Source: an uncultured bacterium
GTDB taxonomy: Bacteria > Armatimonadota > UBA5829
NCBI GenBank assembly: GCA_938074205.1
Contig: CALJES010000012.1
Span: forward strand, 62,001 to 126,000
Reading direction: 5' to 3'
Length of the DNA stretch: 64,000 bases
Made by a program: the position numbers and the translations under genes. A model generated the notes under the pieces. The model was given only the letters and a program-made list of their open reading frames with translations. It was not told the origin of the DNA and searched no databases. Positions 10,644 to 33,753 of the stretch are shown in pieces; the stretch's first letter is position 1, and each line of letters opens with the position of its first letter.

Positions 10644-12183
<1,540 letters not shown>

Positions 12184-12248
12184 ATCGCGGGTCGCACCGG
12201 TTGTTGAACCAACGATTGCCGCATCAGCGACCCCATCCTAGGTCGATA

Positions 12249-12290
12249 ACTCATTCGCACCGCTTACACTATCTAGCGTTCAGGGAACGC
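12249..12290 (+). other. Pre-16S 3' processing-stem arm
   Basis: Complementary over about 40 nt, with a few mismatches and one bulge, to 10498-10538 upstream of 16S. Together they loop out the whole 16S. Confidence 0.75.
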
Positions 12291-12361
12291 TGAGCATAAT
12301 TTGATGACGGCTTCTTTCCGAACAGGGTGATCTGAGGCTACAACGAGACGGTGGGTGTCCC

Positions 12362-12392
12362 GGAAGGGGGAGACCAATCGTCTCCCCCTTCC
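12362..12392 (+). terminator. Strong hairpin in the 16S-23S spacer, possible terminator or processing site
   Basis: A perfect 13-bp stem, GGAAGGGGGAGAC (12362-12374), loop CAATC, GTCTCCCCCTTCC (12380-12392). An outer pairing GGCTTCTT (near 12307) with AAGAAGCC (near 12400) encloses it. No T-run follows, so it may be a processing structure rather than a terminator. Confidence 0.4.
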
Positions 12393-12441
12393 TTGCGTAG
12401 AAGAAGCCAGCACATTAAGAAATAAAAGAACGGCAGACTAC

Positions 12442-12471
12442 TTGACCAGTGGGGTTAAGTTTGTCTATAAT
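12442..12471 (+). promoter_or_regulatory. Consensus promoter inside the rRNA spacer, upstream of 23S
   Basis: TTGACC (12442-12447), 18-bp spacer, TATAAT (12466-12471). It would start transcripts near 12478, giving a leader of about 190 nt before 23S. No ORF or tRNA follows, so its product would be 23S-5S. Confidence 0.65.
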
Positions 12472-12508
12472 GAGCGGCCGCGGGCTTCGGCAGAAGCTGA
12501 GGTCTAAG

Positions 12509-12613
12509 CAAGCTGAGCCGGAAGACGGTGCCTCAGAGCAAAGCAAGTCTTCTTGCCTTCCTCTGAGGTGCGCCGGCAGCTTGTGAGGCGGAGGTTAGAG
12601 CTGCTCATTGACA
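12509..12613 (+). other. Structured 23S leader with boxA-like sequence
   Basis: Three nested stems: CAAGCTG..CCGG (12509-12521) with CCGGCAGCTTG (12573-12583), CCTCAGAG (12531-12538) with CTCTGAGG (12561-12568), and GCAAG (12543-12547) with CTTGC (12552-12556). TGCTCATTGACA at 12602-12613 matches the boxA consensus and is placed where spacer boxA is normally found. No tRNA gene occurs in the spacer. Confidence 0.6.
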
Positions 12614-12667
12614 AGTGCATACGGATTGAGAGTGCGCATGCGAAGCCTTGGTATCGACTTAAGTTTT

Positions 12668-15667
<3,000 letters not shown>

Positions 15668-15804
15668 AATTAATGCAATCATTGCCAGGGCATTGCATGC
15701 TGCCCTCTCACCGTGTGCGCTTGTCTGTGAACGGCAGAGTAGCCGACCTGTCTTTTGAAAGACTGTGTGCAGTCGGTGTCGTAGCCGAATATTTAAAATC
15801 AGTT

Positions 15805-15923
15805 TTCCTGGTGACCATACCGGCGGGGGTCCACCCGTTCCCATTCCGAACACGGTAGTTAAGCCCGCCAGGGCCGACGATACTGGAGCGTGAGGCTCCG
15901 GGAAAATAGGTCGTTGCCAGGAA
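15805..15923 (+). rRNA. rrf: 5S ribosomal RNA
   Basis: About 119 nt. TCCTGG at the start pairs with CCAGGA at the end. CCCGTTCCCATTCCGAACACGG (near 15834-15855) is the classical loop region, and AGTTAAGCCCGCCAG follows. It is directly followed by a terminator. Confidence 0.95.
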
Positions 15924-27748: not shown

Positions 27749-30700
27749 TTACCCCGCGTGATACTCCTGCAGGCTTCGCACTGTGGCTCCCTGTTGGCGC
27801 GCGGTTTCAAGCCCCAATAGGGTAGCTTTAGCGCCCGCTATCGTCGTTATAATGGGAATGCCGCGAGCAACAATAGTTGAACGAATCAATATCTCGTGTT
27901 TTCGTGCCTTCTTGCCGCTTGGAGTATTAATCACCAGTGCAATTTCATTGTTCTTGATCAGATCAATAGCGTCCGGGCGTCCTTCCCCAATCTTGGGGAT
28001 TACACGCACCGGGATTCCAGCCTGGCGTAGCACCTTTCCAGTTCCTTCCGTCGCGATAATGTTAAATCCAAGTGCTCGCAGCTTAGTTGCAATCTCGACA
28101 GCTTCGTGTTTATCGCGGTCTGCCAAGCTCAAGAAAACATTGCCCTTAGATGGCAGATTTTGGCCCGCTGCAATCTGCGCCTTGATGAATGCATTGCCAA
28201 AGTTGAGGTCGATTCCCATCACTTCGCCGGTAGACTTCATCTCAGGTCCGAGTACTACGTCAACACCTGGGAACCGCACAAACGGGAACACGGCTTCCTT
28301 TACAGCAACGTGTTTCGGGGTCACTTCTTGGGTGATGCCTTGTTCCTTCAAACTCTTTCCGAGCATAATCTTAGTTGCTACCCGTGCCCAGGGCACACCG
28401 GTAGCCTTGCCTACGAACGGTACAGTTCGCGACGCTCTGGGGTTCACTTCCAGTATGTATATCTCTCCATTCTTGACAGCGTACTGTACGTTCATAAGTC
28501 CTCGGACTTCCAGCTCTTGAGCAAGCAGGTAAGTCTGGCGCTTGATTTCCGATACTATTTCGTCCGAGAGTGAGTAGGGTGGTAGTGAACAGGCACTGTC
28601 TCCGGAGTGCACACCCGCTCGCTCGATGTGTTCCATGACACCGCAGACGAGTGTAGTCTCGCCATCCGAAATGGCATCCACGTCCACTTCTATAGCATCC
28701 TCAAGGAACTTATCAATCAAGACAGGCCGTTCTGGAGAGGCTTCTGTTGCCAATTCCATGAACGCGGTAAGGTCCGTATCATCATAGACGATTTCCATTG
28801 CTCGCCCCCCTAGCACATAGCTCGGCCTCACAAGGACTGGGTAGCCTATTCGACGTGCTTTCTCTAGGGCTTCCTCTACAGACGTCGCGGTGTCGTTCAC
28901 CGTTTGCCGCAAACCGAGCTTGTTCACCAATTCGCTAAACAGCTTCCGGTCTTCCGCGCGGTCTATCTGTTCGGGTGACGTGCCAAGTATGGTCACCCCT
29001 GCCCGTTTCAGCGGTAAGCTCAGATTGAGCGGCGTCTGACCTCCCAGCTGAACGATGACGCCCATCGGTTTTTCGCGGTCTACTATTCCCAGCACGTCTT
29101 CGCGAGTTAGAGGCTCAAAGTACAATTTGTCGGACGTATCGAAGTCGGTCGACACAGTTTCTGGGTTGCAGTTGATAATTATCGCCTCGTAGCCTTCTTC
29201 CCGGCAGGCATATGCCGCGTGCACACAGCAGTAATCGAATTCTATGCCTTGTCCTATGCGGTTGGGCCCACCGCCGAGAATTATTACCTTTTTCGGATTT
29301 GACGTGGTGCGGCTTTGGTCTAGCGTCTCGTAGGTCGAGTAGAAGTAGGGTTTTTCAGCTTCAAATTCGCCAGCGCAGGTGTCCACAAGATAGAAGGTGC
29401 TTTCAATTCCCAACACCTTCCGCCGCATCCTGACCTGTTCTTCGCTGGTTTCAAGCAGGTTTGCGATCTGAACGTCGGAGTACCCGAGTTGCTTCGCTTC
29501 TCGCAGCGTTTCAGCTGGTATGTTCACAAGCGACTTCCCCTCAAATTGCTTCTCAAACTCTACCAACTCTCGAATATTTTCTATGAACCATGGATCAATC
29601 TTCGAAAGCTCATATATCTCATCGGTCGGCATCCCGTTTTCAATGGCATAGCGGATAAAGAACAATCGTTCGGCATTGGGTTGGACGAGCTTGCGGCGAA
29701 TGAGGTCCATATCCCGCCGCTCTTTTTCTTTGAGGTCCTTACCGTCAGACCCCAGCCCGTAGCGTCCTATCTCGAGCGACCGAATTCCCTTTTGCAGCGC
29801 CTCTTTGAAGTTACGCCCGATAGCCATAGCTTCGCCGACAGCTTTCATGGACGTATTGAGCGTGGGGTCTGCCTGCGGGAACTTCTCAAATGTAAACCGA
29901 CAGACTTTCATAACCACATAGTCAACAGTCGGTTCGAAGTCTGAATATGTCTTCCCAGTGATGTCGTTCTTTATCTCATCCAGCGTCAATCCCACCGCAA
30001 GCTTTGCGGCTACGCGTGCAATTGGGAACCCTGTTGCTTTCGATGCTAGTGCGGACGACCGGCTAACCCTTGGGTTTATCTCGATAATGACTACGTCTCC
30101 ATTGTCGGGATTCACGGCGTATTGTATGTTCGTGCCGCCACCATTGATGCCTACCGCCCGGATGACCTTTTTGGAAAGCTCGACTAGGTTTGCCATCTCC
30201 GGCATAGTAAGGGTTTGCGCCGGAGCAACTACCACAGAATCGCCGGTGTGAACCCCCATCGGGTCGATGTTTTCCATGGAAGTGACGCAGATCACATTGT
30301 CGGCGCAGTCACGAATGACCTCGAACTCAATCTCTTTCCAGCCCAGCACTGACTCCTCAATAAGCGTTTGATGTATCGGACTGGTCTCAAGTGCGAAAGC
30401 GAGCATTTTCTCGAACTCTTCCATATTGTAAGCGGTTGCCCCGCCTGCGCCTCCCATGGTATACGCCGGGCGAAGTATTGCCGGGAAACCGACGTACTTT
30501 ATCACCTGCATTCCTTCCTCAATGGAGCGCGCAATACCGCTGCGGGGCACGCGTATACCTATAGACTGCATAGTCTCCTTGAACAACTCGCGGTCCTCAG
30601 CTCGGGCTATTGCCCTTTCATCTGCTCCGATAAGCTCACAGCCGTACTTCTTGAGGACGCCTTCGCGCTCAAGGAATGTGCCCAGATTAAGTCCCATCTG

Positions 30701-30976
30701 ACCACCAAGTGTGGGCAGCAAAGCATCTGGCCTTTCTCTCTCGATTATTTTGGCTACGGATTCCAGCGTCAGCGGCTCGATATAAGTGCGGTCAGCCATT
30801 CCAGGGTCCGTCATTATTGTGGCTGGGTTCGAGTTGACCAACACTGTCTGGTAGCCTTCTTCTCGAAATGCCTTGCAAGCCTGCGAGCCGGAGTAGTCGA
30901 ATTCGCAAGCCTGACCGATAACGATAGGTCCGCTTCCAATTATCAAGATTTTCTTTATATCAGTCCTTTTTGGCAT
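27749..30976 (-). CDS. carB: Carbamoyl-phosphate synthase large chain
   Basis: 1075 residues, the full family length. The two ATP-grasp halves are intact: the first with [17 protein letters not shown] near residue 14 and [11 protein letters not shown], the second with [17 protein letters not shown] and [11 protein letters not shown]. The oligomerisation domain lies between, and an MGS-like allosteric domain ends the protein ([25 protein letters not shown]). It makes carbamoyl phosphate from bicarbonate, two ATP and ammonia for pyrimidine and arginine synthesis. It lies 76 nt downstream of carA on the same strand. All regions needed for ammonia-dependent synthesis look normal, in contrast with the carA partner. 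Confidence 0.97.
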
Positions 30977-31052: not shown

Positions 31053-32045
31053 TCATTTAATGGCGTCAAGCATAGCCTGGAACCACGCCTCATTGGGCAA
31101 AAAGTTCGCACCGGCCGCGCGACTATCTTTGCAAACGAAGCCTTCACACGTGCTGTCGTGAACGTTTATAAAAAGGGATTCCACTTGACCTGCCGGGATT
31201 ACAACATAGTTGTGGTTCTGTACGGTGATCTCGTTGCGCCCGCCCCCGACGTACTTTACAGGTATGTTTAGACCGTGGTCACCGAAGGAAAGTCGTCTGA
31301 CTGTAGCTCCACATGCCCGGGCAACAATTGCGCACCCGTGTCCAAATCCCAGTACGGGTTTGTCTTTGAGCCTGGATCTCACCAGATCGACCTTTCGCTC
31401 GTCCTCGACCGCATAGTAAGGTGCGTCCGACACAATTACGATTTCAGCTGATTCCGGGTCGCAGGTCGCATCTATTCCCAGTGAGGCAATGTGCTTGTAG
31501 AACGAACGTGATGCTCCGAAATCGATCACCTCAGCCTTGACTACAGGCACTGCTCGGTCGCACGCTATCGGCGAGTTCTCAGGCTGGTAATCCACGAGAG
31601 GAGCCTGTTCTAAGCGTGCTTTGACCTCTTCGGCGCCGAGCCTTTGCGTGCTAATTGCCGCACCCATTTCACCGTGTTCGCGCATGTGCACCATCATTGC
31701 CCGGGTGTCAAACCGGTGGCCCAGCAGAGTCTTAGTGGGCCTGAGATAATCGTGAAGACTAATTTCGGCACGGAAATTGCTGTAATAAGGCGGGTACTCC
31801 TTAGCTAGAATTGCCCCAACCTTCGGCGCGGCTGATTCCGTATCCTCGGAGTTAACGCCGTAGTTGCCGATCAGAGGATAGGTGTATACGACTATCTTGC
31901 CCATGTTTGCAGGGTCGGTTATGACTTCTTGGTAACCCACCACGCCAGTGTAGAATGACAGCAGCCCAGCGCATTCTACGGGTTCGTTAACGCTCACTCC
32001 CTCGAATATGGTACCGTCTTCGAGGCAACAGAATATAGGTTTCAT
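31053..32045 (-). CDS. carA: Carbamoyl-phosphate synthase small chain, glutaminase site lost
   Basis: 330 residues from ATG 32045, which has GGAG 5 nt upstream; the in-frame ATG at 32069 has no SD. The N-terminal CPSase domain is recognisable (GVVGYQEVITDP, YTYPLIGNYGVN, FDTRAMMVHMREHG). The class I amidotransferase domain is degenerate. Where the nucleophile elbow normally reads GICLGHQ, this protein reads GFGHGCA (residues 233-239), with no nucleophilic Cys. The usual GPGDP is replaced (SDAPYYAV), and the catalytic HPE appears as LPN (Leu316). It should not hydrolyse glutamine. It may still be a structural subunit for CarB, which would then use free ammonia. The protein is also shorter than the usual 370-390 residues. 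The carA-carB order and spacing are normal. Confidence 0.9.
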   Translation of the reverse strand: MKPIFCCLEDGTIFEGVSVNEPVECAGLLSFYTGVVGYQEVITDPANMGKIVVYTYPLIGNYGVNSEDTESAAPKVGAILAKEYPPYYSNFRAEISLHDYLRPTKTLLGHRFDTRAMMVHMREHGEMGAAISTQRLGAEEVKARLEQAPLVDYQPENSPIACDRAVPVVKAEVIDFGASRSFYKHIASLGIDATCDPESAEIVIVSDAPYYAVEDERKVDLVRSRLKDKPVLGFGHGCAIVARACGATVRRLSFGDHGLNIPVKYVGGGRNEITVQNHNYVVIPAGQVESLFINVHDSTCEGFVCKDSRAAGANFLPNEAWFQAMLDAIK

Positions 32046-32085
32046 ATCTACTCCAGCTAGGTGATCCATGTCATAAAGCCCTCAG

Positions 32086-32245: not shown

Positions 32246-32255
32246 AGTGTTTGAA

Positions 32256-32606
32256 ATGAAGCTCATAAGCGTTTGCAAAGGAAAAATACATAGAGCCACG
32301 GTTACCAGCTGCGACGTGAACTATGAAGGCAGCATCACTGTTGACCAGGATCTCTTGGACGCTGCCGGTATCGTGGACGGTGAGCTTGTGCACGTCTGGA
32401 ATATATCGAACGGTGAGCGGCTGGAGACGTACGCAATTCCGGCCGAGCGCGGCAGTGGAATAGTTTGTCTAAATGGTGCTGCCGCTCTTAGGTGCGGCGT
32501 CGGCGACAAAATAATCATTGCGGCTTTTTGCCTGACCGACGAGCCAGTACGCAGAAAAGTAGTTCTTGTCGACGACAACAACCGCATCACTAAGATCGTA
32601 TCCTAA
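32256..32606 (+). CDS. panD: Aspartate 1-decarboxylase precursor
   Basis: 116 residues. PanD makes beta-alanine from aspartate for pantothenate and CoA synthesis. It is a pyruvoyl enzyme, self-cleaved between Gly25 and Ser26 in NYEGSIT; the downstream [10 protein letters not shown] and CLNGAAA motifs are conserved. The start at 32256 gives the usual spacing to the cleavage site, within one residue of typical PanD. No SD site is seen, in agreement with the promoter placed 10 nt upstream. It heads a plus-strand unit with the radical SAM gene and is divergent from carAB. Confidence 0.95.
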
Positions 32607-32649
32607 CGCGCCCATTTGGGCTGTAAATGCAGAACGCCCGAATAATCCC

Positions 32650-33753
32650 GTGATCAATTCCGTCCTTGTCAAACCTTCAGGTCCTGATTGCAACCTCCGC
32701 TGCAACTACTGTTTCTACCGACAGAAGGCAGGGCTTTTCGGAGGGAAGCGCCACCGTATGTCGGAACGCGTCCTCGAGGAACTTATCAGTCAGTGCATGG
32801 ATCTTGGCGTCACCACGTTTTCTTGGCAGGGTGGCGAACCGGCTCTTATGGGCCTGAGTTTTTTCGAGAGAGTAGTCGAACTCGAAATGCGCCTTGGCGC
32901 GCCCGGTACTACAGTCGCAAATGCGCTCCAAACGAACGGCACCCTGCTGGACAGTGACTGGGCGCGTTTCCTTGCGAATTATAACTTCCTTGTCGGTCTC
33001 TCTATAGATGGTCCGGCTGAGCTGCACGACTATTATCGTAAGGATGCCGCTGGTAAAGGTACGCATCGACGGGTTATGAATACTGCAAGATTGCTGAGAC
33101 AGCACGGCGTCGAGTTCAACATCTTGGCGCTGGTCAACGATGTCAACGTCAAGCACCCGAACGAGGTTTGGGATTTTTTCAAGGAGAACGAGTTTTCTTT
33201 TCTGCAATTTGTGCCTTGCGTGGAACCGGCAGGCAAGGGCGAGGCGGCACCGTTCTCCGTCACGCCCGAGGAGTTCGGCGAGTTTCTGGTGGTAATTTTC
33301 GACCGCTGGGTGGAAGACTTTCCGAATGTGTCTGTTCGAGACTTTGATGACCTGCTGGCTCACGAGTTGGGAATGCGGCCAGCGACTTGTACCGTTAGCG
33401 AAACCTGCGGTAGTTATGTGGTAGTGGAGCACAACGGAGACGTTTTTGCTTGCGATTTCTTTGTGATGGCAAGGTGGCGTCTGGGAAACATTCTTCAGTC
33501 CCATCTGGGCGAGATAATAAAATTTGAGAAGTTCGCAGAGTTTGCTGAGAACAAGAGCAGGTACGGCGCTGCCTGTCGGTCGTGCAAGTACCTCGAGTGG
33601 TGTCACGGCGGCTGTCAGAAGCATCGGATCGTGCTTGGCGGTGAGTTGGGCCACCCAAGCTACTTTTGCAAATCGTACAGGATGCTTTTTGCCCACGCGT
33701 TACCGAAAATTCCCGAACTTGCGCAGCGGCTCAGGTTGATGGGCAGGGCCTAG
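32650..33753 (+). CDS. Radical SAM/SPASM anaerobic sulfatase-maturating enzyme-like protein
   Basis: 367 residues if started at GTG 32650; an in-frame TTG at 32566, inside panD, is less likely because anSME proteins normally begin a few residues before the SVLVKPSG strand. The radical SAM motif is Cys14, Cys18, Cys21 (DCNLRCNYCFY). SFSWQGGEP-like TFSWQGGEPAL is the SAM-binding motif. The C-terminal CRSCKYLEWCHGGCQKHR and the later SYFCKSY match the SPASM auxiliary-cluster ligands of anSME, which converts an active-site Ser or Cys of sulfatases to formylglycine. No sulfatase gene lies in the window. A small Cys-containing gene follows after 18 nt. Confidence 0.85.
   Translation: MINSVLVKPSGPDCNLRCNYCFYRQKAGLFGGKRHRMSERVLEELISQCMDLGVTTFSWQGGEPALMGLSFFERVVELEMRLGAPGTTVANALQTNGTLLDSDWARFLANYNFLVGLSIDGPAELHDYYRKDAAGKGTHRRVMNTARLLRQHGVEFNILALVNDVNVKHPNEVWDFFKENEFSFLQFVPCVEPAGKGEAAPFSVTPEEFGEFLVVIFDRWVEDFPNVSVRDFDDLLAHELGMRPATCTVSETCGSYVVVEHNGDVFACDFFVMARWRLGNILQSHLGEIIKFEKFAEFAENKSRYGAACRSCKYLEWCHGGCQKHRIVLGGELGHPSYFCKSYRMLFAHALPKIPELAQRLRLMGRA

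Follow-up and report, generated by a model that had tools for sequence, protein, structure and literature searches.

A conserved carbamoyl phosphate synthetase with a glutaminase-dead small subunit in an Armatimonadota family, probably fed by free ammonia

What supplies nitrogen to a carbamoyl phosphate synthetase (CPS) whose small subunit has lost its glutaminase site? Three kinds of CPS are distinguished, of which the ammonia-only CPS I is mitochondrial (PMC6022934), and glutamine, the physiological donor in E. coli, is by extension regarded as serving every bacterial CPS (PMC6245113). The window analyzed here, a stretch of 64,000 nucleotides from an uncultured Armatimonadota bacterium, contains a carA-carB pair in which, according to the original prediction, the nucleophile elbow lacks the catalytic Cys, Leu316 takes the place of the His in HPE, and the GPGDP motif is gone, next to a normal carB. 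Two explanations were proposed: the CPS may depend on ammonia and keep CarA for structure, or the genome holds another carA. The relevant features are:

31053..32045, minus strand: carA paralogue coding for a glutaminase-dead CPS small subunit of 330 aa (ORF, Pfam, alignment, predicted fold)
31329..31349, minus strand: nucleophile elbow GFGHGCA, residues 233-239, with Gly235 in place of E. coli Cys269 (alignment)
31092..31100, minus strand: LPN, residues 316-318, at the place of HPE; the SPGPHD loop with Gly359 just after it is deleted (alignment)
31410..31424, minus strand: APYYA, residues 208-212, at the place of GPGDP, with a deletion right upstream (alignment)
27749..30976, minus strand: carB, large subunit of 1075 aa (NCBIfam, alignment)

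All three lesions are borne out by an alignment of the window CarA with E. coli CarA and 30 CarA ORFs from related genomes. The E. coli elbow GICLGHQ reads GFGHGCA, His353 (E. coli numbering) is replaced by Leu316 and, in addition, Glu355 by Asn318, while APYYA is preceded by a deletion of about ten residues. The catalytic Cys269-His353-Glu355 of the glutamine-hydrolysing small subunit is thus Gly, Leu, and Asn. The prediction was correct and conservative, as the damage exceeds what it had listed. Ser47 and Gly241 are changed to Ala, Gly243 to Tyr, Leu270 to His, and Gln273 to Ala (E. coli numbering), all of them glutamine contacts in E. coli CarA; as judged from the alignment, most glutamine-binding residues are gone besides Cys, His, and Glu. 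Gly359 of the deleted SPGPHD loop is an ammonia-tunnel residue of E. coli CPS, and its G359F mutant (1m6v) is among the structures matched by the predicted fold. The gene may alternatively start at an in-frame ATG at 32069, 24 bases upstream.

Cys238 of HGCA was considered as a shifted nucleophile and rejected, since it lies off the elbow position and is Ser in genome G013 and Ala in G006 and G012. Sequencing error, frameshift, or chance are likewise discarded, as the same changes occur in relatives at 37-82% protein identity, in seven species. Indeed, the alignment of orthologues that had been suggested as a check reveals loss of Cys, His, and Glu, as well as of most of the glutamine pocket, in all seven members, the window CarA and its counterparts in six relatives from one Armatimonadota family.

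Both CarA domains, the small-chain domain and the class-I GATase domain, are recognized in the window protein (Pfam PF00988, 4e-34; PF00117, 5e-10), which places it in the CarA fold family. Its scores fall below the curated cut-offs of both NCBIfam CarA models, TIGR01368 and NF009475, at 203.5 vs 307 for one model and 204.5 vs 221 for the other. The AlphaFold model (mean pLDDT 93.9, pTM 0.91) superimposes on E. coli CarA with Z 36 over 326 residues and on human CPS1 with Z 33. As predicted by this model, the CarA fold is kept despite the dead site.

CarB is normal, as had been stated. It starts 76 bases after the carA stop codon, retains 16/16 checked catalytic positions across both ATP-grasp halves, and matches the NCBIfam CarB equivalog with 1633 bits; its nearest relative is 97% identical. 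At the position of E. coli Glu892, an ornithine-site residue, the window CarB has Glu, whereas the pyrimidine CarB of the same genome has Ala.

This genome (3.02 Mb, 97.9% complete) contains one further carA with a full triad and one further carB, 52% identical to the window CarB. Their operon reads pyrR-pyrB-pyrC-pyrE-carA-carB, with pyr names taken from reading the translations and pyrB backed by a TIGR00658 match. Thus, the search for a second carA that the original prediction had called for yields a catalytically complete one with its own carB, whereas the other half of its proposal, a structural CarA and ammonia use, holds at the level of sequence, from which we infer the ammonia. Moreover, the contig that contains the window carries argF at another location, so that the genome combines a separate pyrimidine-operon CPS with argF, the setting of an arginine-specific CPS. 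As the pyrimidine operon holds a normal CPS, argF is present, and the ornithine-site Glu occurs only in the window CarB, a division of labor is likely in which the live copy serves pyrimidines and the dead-CarA copy most likely supplies arginine synthesis.

Taken with an amidotransferase domain that lacks its catalytic Cys, the mark of an ammonia-dependent CPS, these observations make it probable that the window carAB is a second CPS, likely for arginine, in which a non-catalytic pseudo-glutaminase CarA plays a structural part and CarB is fed by free ammonia. CarB would form carbamoyl phosphate from bicarbonate, two ATP, and free ammonia. Ammonia would probably enter at the mouth of the CarA/CarB tunnel, perhaps opened by the missing CarA loop, and the dead CarA would be retained because it keeps CarB in an active conformation. 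Ammonia supports E. coli CPS only at concentrations so high that they are considered unphysiological (PMC6245113); natural dead-CarA enzymes are therefore predicted to need a better ammonia route or a higher CarB affinity.

The strongest evidence that dead-CarA complexes synthesize carbamoyl phosphate is provided by genus g5 among the relatives. The window's own genus (g1) and genome G013 combine a live pyrimidine CPS with the dead-CarA CPS, the placing of G013 being less sure since this genome is 6% contaminated and its two almost identical fragments of pyrimidine carB suggest mixed strains. In the three genomes of genus g5, a dead CarA with an intact CarB is the only CPS found. These are incomplete MAGs (84-96%) in which a canonical carA may have been missed, though all three agree: G006 (96%) and G010 (91%) contain both argF and pyrB, and G012 (84%) argF only. 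Since the pair is their sole CPS alongside argF, and pyrB in two of them, such a complex very probably makes carbamoyl phosphate, by our reading from ammonia. By their record titles, two of the g5 genomes (L089, L090) are MAGs from the rumen of goat and yak.

In the window's own genus, the pair might instead be, or be becoming, a regulatory pseudo-complex that senses ornithine or UMP or binds the live CPS, with carbamoyl phosphate provided by the pyrimidine CPS. The end stage would be represented by the catalytically ruined, orphan second CarB found in eight genomes of the sister genera g2, g3, g4, and g6. These orphans are orthologous to the window CarB (a clade of 15 at 100% support) and form one clade at 99%. 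A whole-genome search detected no window-type carA in any of the eight, and for G003 and G011, whose contigs end near carB, its absence rests on this search rather than on synteny. Catalytic residues are lost in one or both halves (5/16 in G003, 12/16 in G009), but most orphans are full length:

L071, 7018-10146, minus strand: full-length orphan CarB
L073, 7432-10608, plus strand: full-length orphan CarB
L074, 7156-10341, minus strand: full-length orphan CarB
L069, 4110-7337, minus strand: full-length orphan CarB
L072, 313-3489, plus strand: full-length orphan CarB
L077, 5237-8401, plus strand: full-length orphan CarB

In the pair tested (G004/G008), pN is 0.095 vs a pS of 0.57 and lowest in the allosteric domain (0.043), indicating purifying selection that is strongest there. 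By sequence, these orphans appear to be pseudoenzymes that have been retained, a pseudo-CPS. The window CarB, in contrast, retains all checked catalytic positions, and none of the other three CPS subunits compared changes as slowly: in G000 and G002, the two nearest species, its dN is 0.019 vs 0.088 for the pyrimidine CarB. Together with the status of the pair as the only CPS in g5, this renders a regulatory role unlikely for the window complex. As a separate observation, the pyrimidine CarB of G009 (L078, 1453-4560; G009:C82) carries an in-frame TAG near the C-terminal allosteric domain, leaving 1036 aa vs about 1110, which is either a real truncation or an assembly error.

Even less probable is that another protein hydrolyzes glutamine to supply the ammonia, with the dead CarA as a docking platform. 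The donor could be the live pyrimidine CarA, which is present in G000-G002 and G013 and could serve the window CarB, or a PabA/TrpG-type amidotransferase, as most genomes yield GATase-only matches of about 200 aa, a PabA/TrpG-like size. However, no live CarA was found in g5 or g4, and the two g4 genomes give no GATase-only match of comparable score in the same search. We know of no precedent for a CPS fed by the glutaminase of another protein.

The g4 genomes, both at 100% estimated completeness, have a single CarA in which Cys is replaced by Gly and His by Gln or Glu. The SPGPHD loop is also absent and the glutamine pocket mostly retained, and in G005 the gene is located in the pyrimidine operon. 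In a CarA tree computed without the columns of the trait itself, g4 CarA nests among the family's live pyrimidine CarAs with 99% support, which makes it an independent loss. A possible early stage of loss is seen in L022 (G024), where Cys is present while His353 is replaced by Tyr and Ser47 by Ala.

Simple decay, which the original prediction had already doubted, is highly improbable: A live second copy would permit it, but the frame is open in seven species, the predicted fold is intact, pN is far below pS, and amino acids change at the rate of the live copy. Between G000 and G002, dN is 0.106 for the dead and 0.118 for the live pyrimidine CarA, a comparison independent of dS, while the dN/dS of about 0.08 for the dead CarA is rough, as most comparisons approach or reach saturation in dS. 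No copy contains a stop. Hence, the dead CarA is under purifying selection, and the shared loss in seven species and the intact CarB speak against decay as well. Among 291 Armatimonadota genomes, a profile of the window CarA type separates seven genomes from a single family (502-593 bits) from all the rest, which reach about 210 bits at best; as these seven also built the profile, it is the gap to all others that counts.

CarA without the catalytic Cys is not confined to this family. Scanned against 84,980 species, the dead-CarA profile returned 43 loci, a number that does not give a rate of loss because the query is biased toward divergent CarA. Apart from the relatives of the window's host, which are among these loci, named bacterial hosts are Streptococcus entericus, two Wohlfahrtiimonas, Secundilactobacillus kimchicus, and Arcobacter vandammei, joined by a Planctomycetota MAG, two Omnitrophota, clostridial MAGs, and a Leuconostocaceae bacterium, and archaeal ones by Methanomethylophilaceae and another Thermoplasmata archaeon. 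CarA of Bacillus sp. B15-48 has Asn at the Cys position and retains His-Pro-Glu. In most of these hosts, the Cys-less carA is the only one found, and the partner CarBs readable over their full length retain their catalytic residues except in two Lactobacillaceae. Sole-copy dead CarA with intact CarB also occurs in the cultured S. entericus and A. vandammei. In Leuconostocaceae ESL0958 (L124, 7042-9565, plus strand) and S. kimchicus (L127, 7054-9595, plus strand), CarB is short (841 and 847 aa) and lacks catalytic residues, and a live carA lies elsewhere. Among 30 species of the A. vandammei genus, each with one carA (L186-L214 and L146), 13 have the Cys-less and 17 the normal form, providing a clean within-genus contrast and a natural experiment.

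On the CarA tree, parsimony requires 12 changes of state, at least six of them forced by well-supported branches. These changes are taken as losses, because Cys, His, and a deleted loop could hardly be regained. Some could be shared through horizontal transfer, given that the window-type CarB has as its nearest outside neighbor a Planctomycetota CarB whose partner is Cys-less. Loss of the SPGPHD loop accompanies that of Cys in g1, g5, g4, S. entericus, Wohlfahrtiimonas, one Omnitrophota, a clostridium, and Arcobacter, though not in all hosts. Record titles place several carriers of the dead form in gut or rumen samples, consistent with a habitat rich in ammonia.

The window system shares features with several known enzymes. 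It resembles E. coli CarAB (CPS II) in its two subunits, gene order, CarA fold, CarB catalytic positions, and ornithine-site Glu, but differs in lacking the CarA triad, the glutamine pocket, and the SPGPHD loop with Gly359. With vertebrate mitochondrial CPS1 (CPS I) it has in common a structurally similar amidotransferase-like domain without the catalytic Cys and, putatively, ammonia as donor; CPS1, however, is one chain and needs N-acetylglutamate, whereas the window system has two subunits and has lost the whole glutamine site. Bacillus and Lactobacillus likewise have a second CPS, specific for arginine (PMC6245113), with a carAB located away from the pyrimidine operon; those enzymes are described as ordinary, whereas the window pair has a dead CarA and a putative arginine role. 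The small CPS of Methanobrevibacter smithii (PMC6022934) likewise relies on ATP-grasp domains without a glutaminase for carbamoyl phosphate, but is a 41-kDa ATP-grasp dimer and not a full-length CarB with a retained pseudo-CarA.

The literature searched, with most subscription papers outside its scope, contained no account of a prokaryotic CarA lacking the Cys; the genome paper of Arcobacter thereius lists its CarA without remark as a normal small chain. Many genomes, including some that have no CPS other than the dead form, seem to contradict the view that glutamine serves all bacterial CPSs, which suggests that many microbes feed CPS with free ammonia, as the liver does. We lean, by a modest degree, toward regarding dead-CarA CPS as a recurrent, stable, ammonia-fed prokaryotic class ("bacterial CPS I") of many origins, often the only CPS of its host, from which a lineage in one Armatimonadota family later derived a conserved, catalytically dead regulatory CarB. 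If so, the origin of vertebrate CPS1 would be one case of a repeatable transition, with staged natural intermediates: in g4, triad and tunnel loop are lost and the pocket is mostly kept, while in g1 and g5 the pocket is lost too. Automatic annotation can label dead CarAs "glutamine-hydrolyzing", which calls for caution.

The DNA flanking the pair was also inspected. No arg genes were recognized beside carAB in the genomes read and no ArgR site was found there, promoter and terminator scans returned nothing above chance, and no shared operator was apparent by eye in the upstream regions of four relatives. Divergent from carA, at 32247-33753 (plus strand), a small PanD-like ORF is followed by a radical-SAM, anaerobic-sulfatase-maturase-like ORF, both named by eye from their translations, and this order is also kept in G002. 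An Rfam scan of the whole window detected only an rRNA operon and no regulatory element at carA; this operon, at 10644-15922 (plus strand), is a complete 16S-23S-5S unit whose spacer is devoid of tRNA genes.
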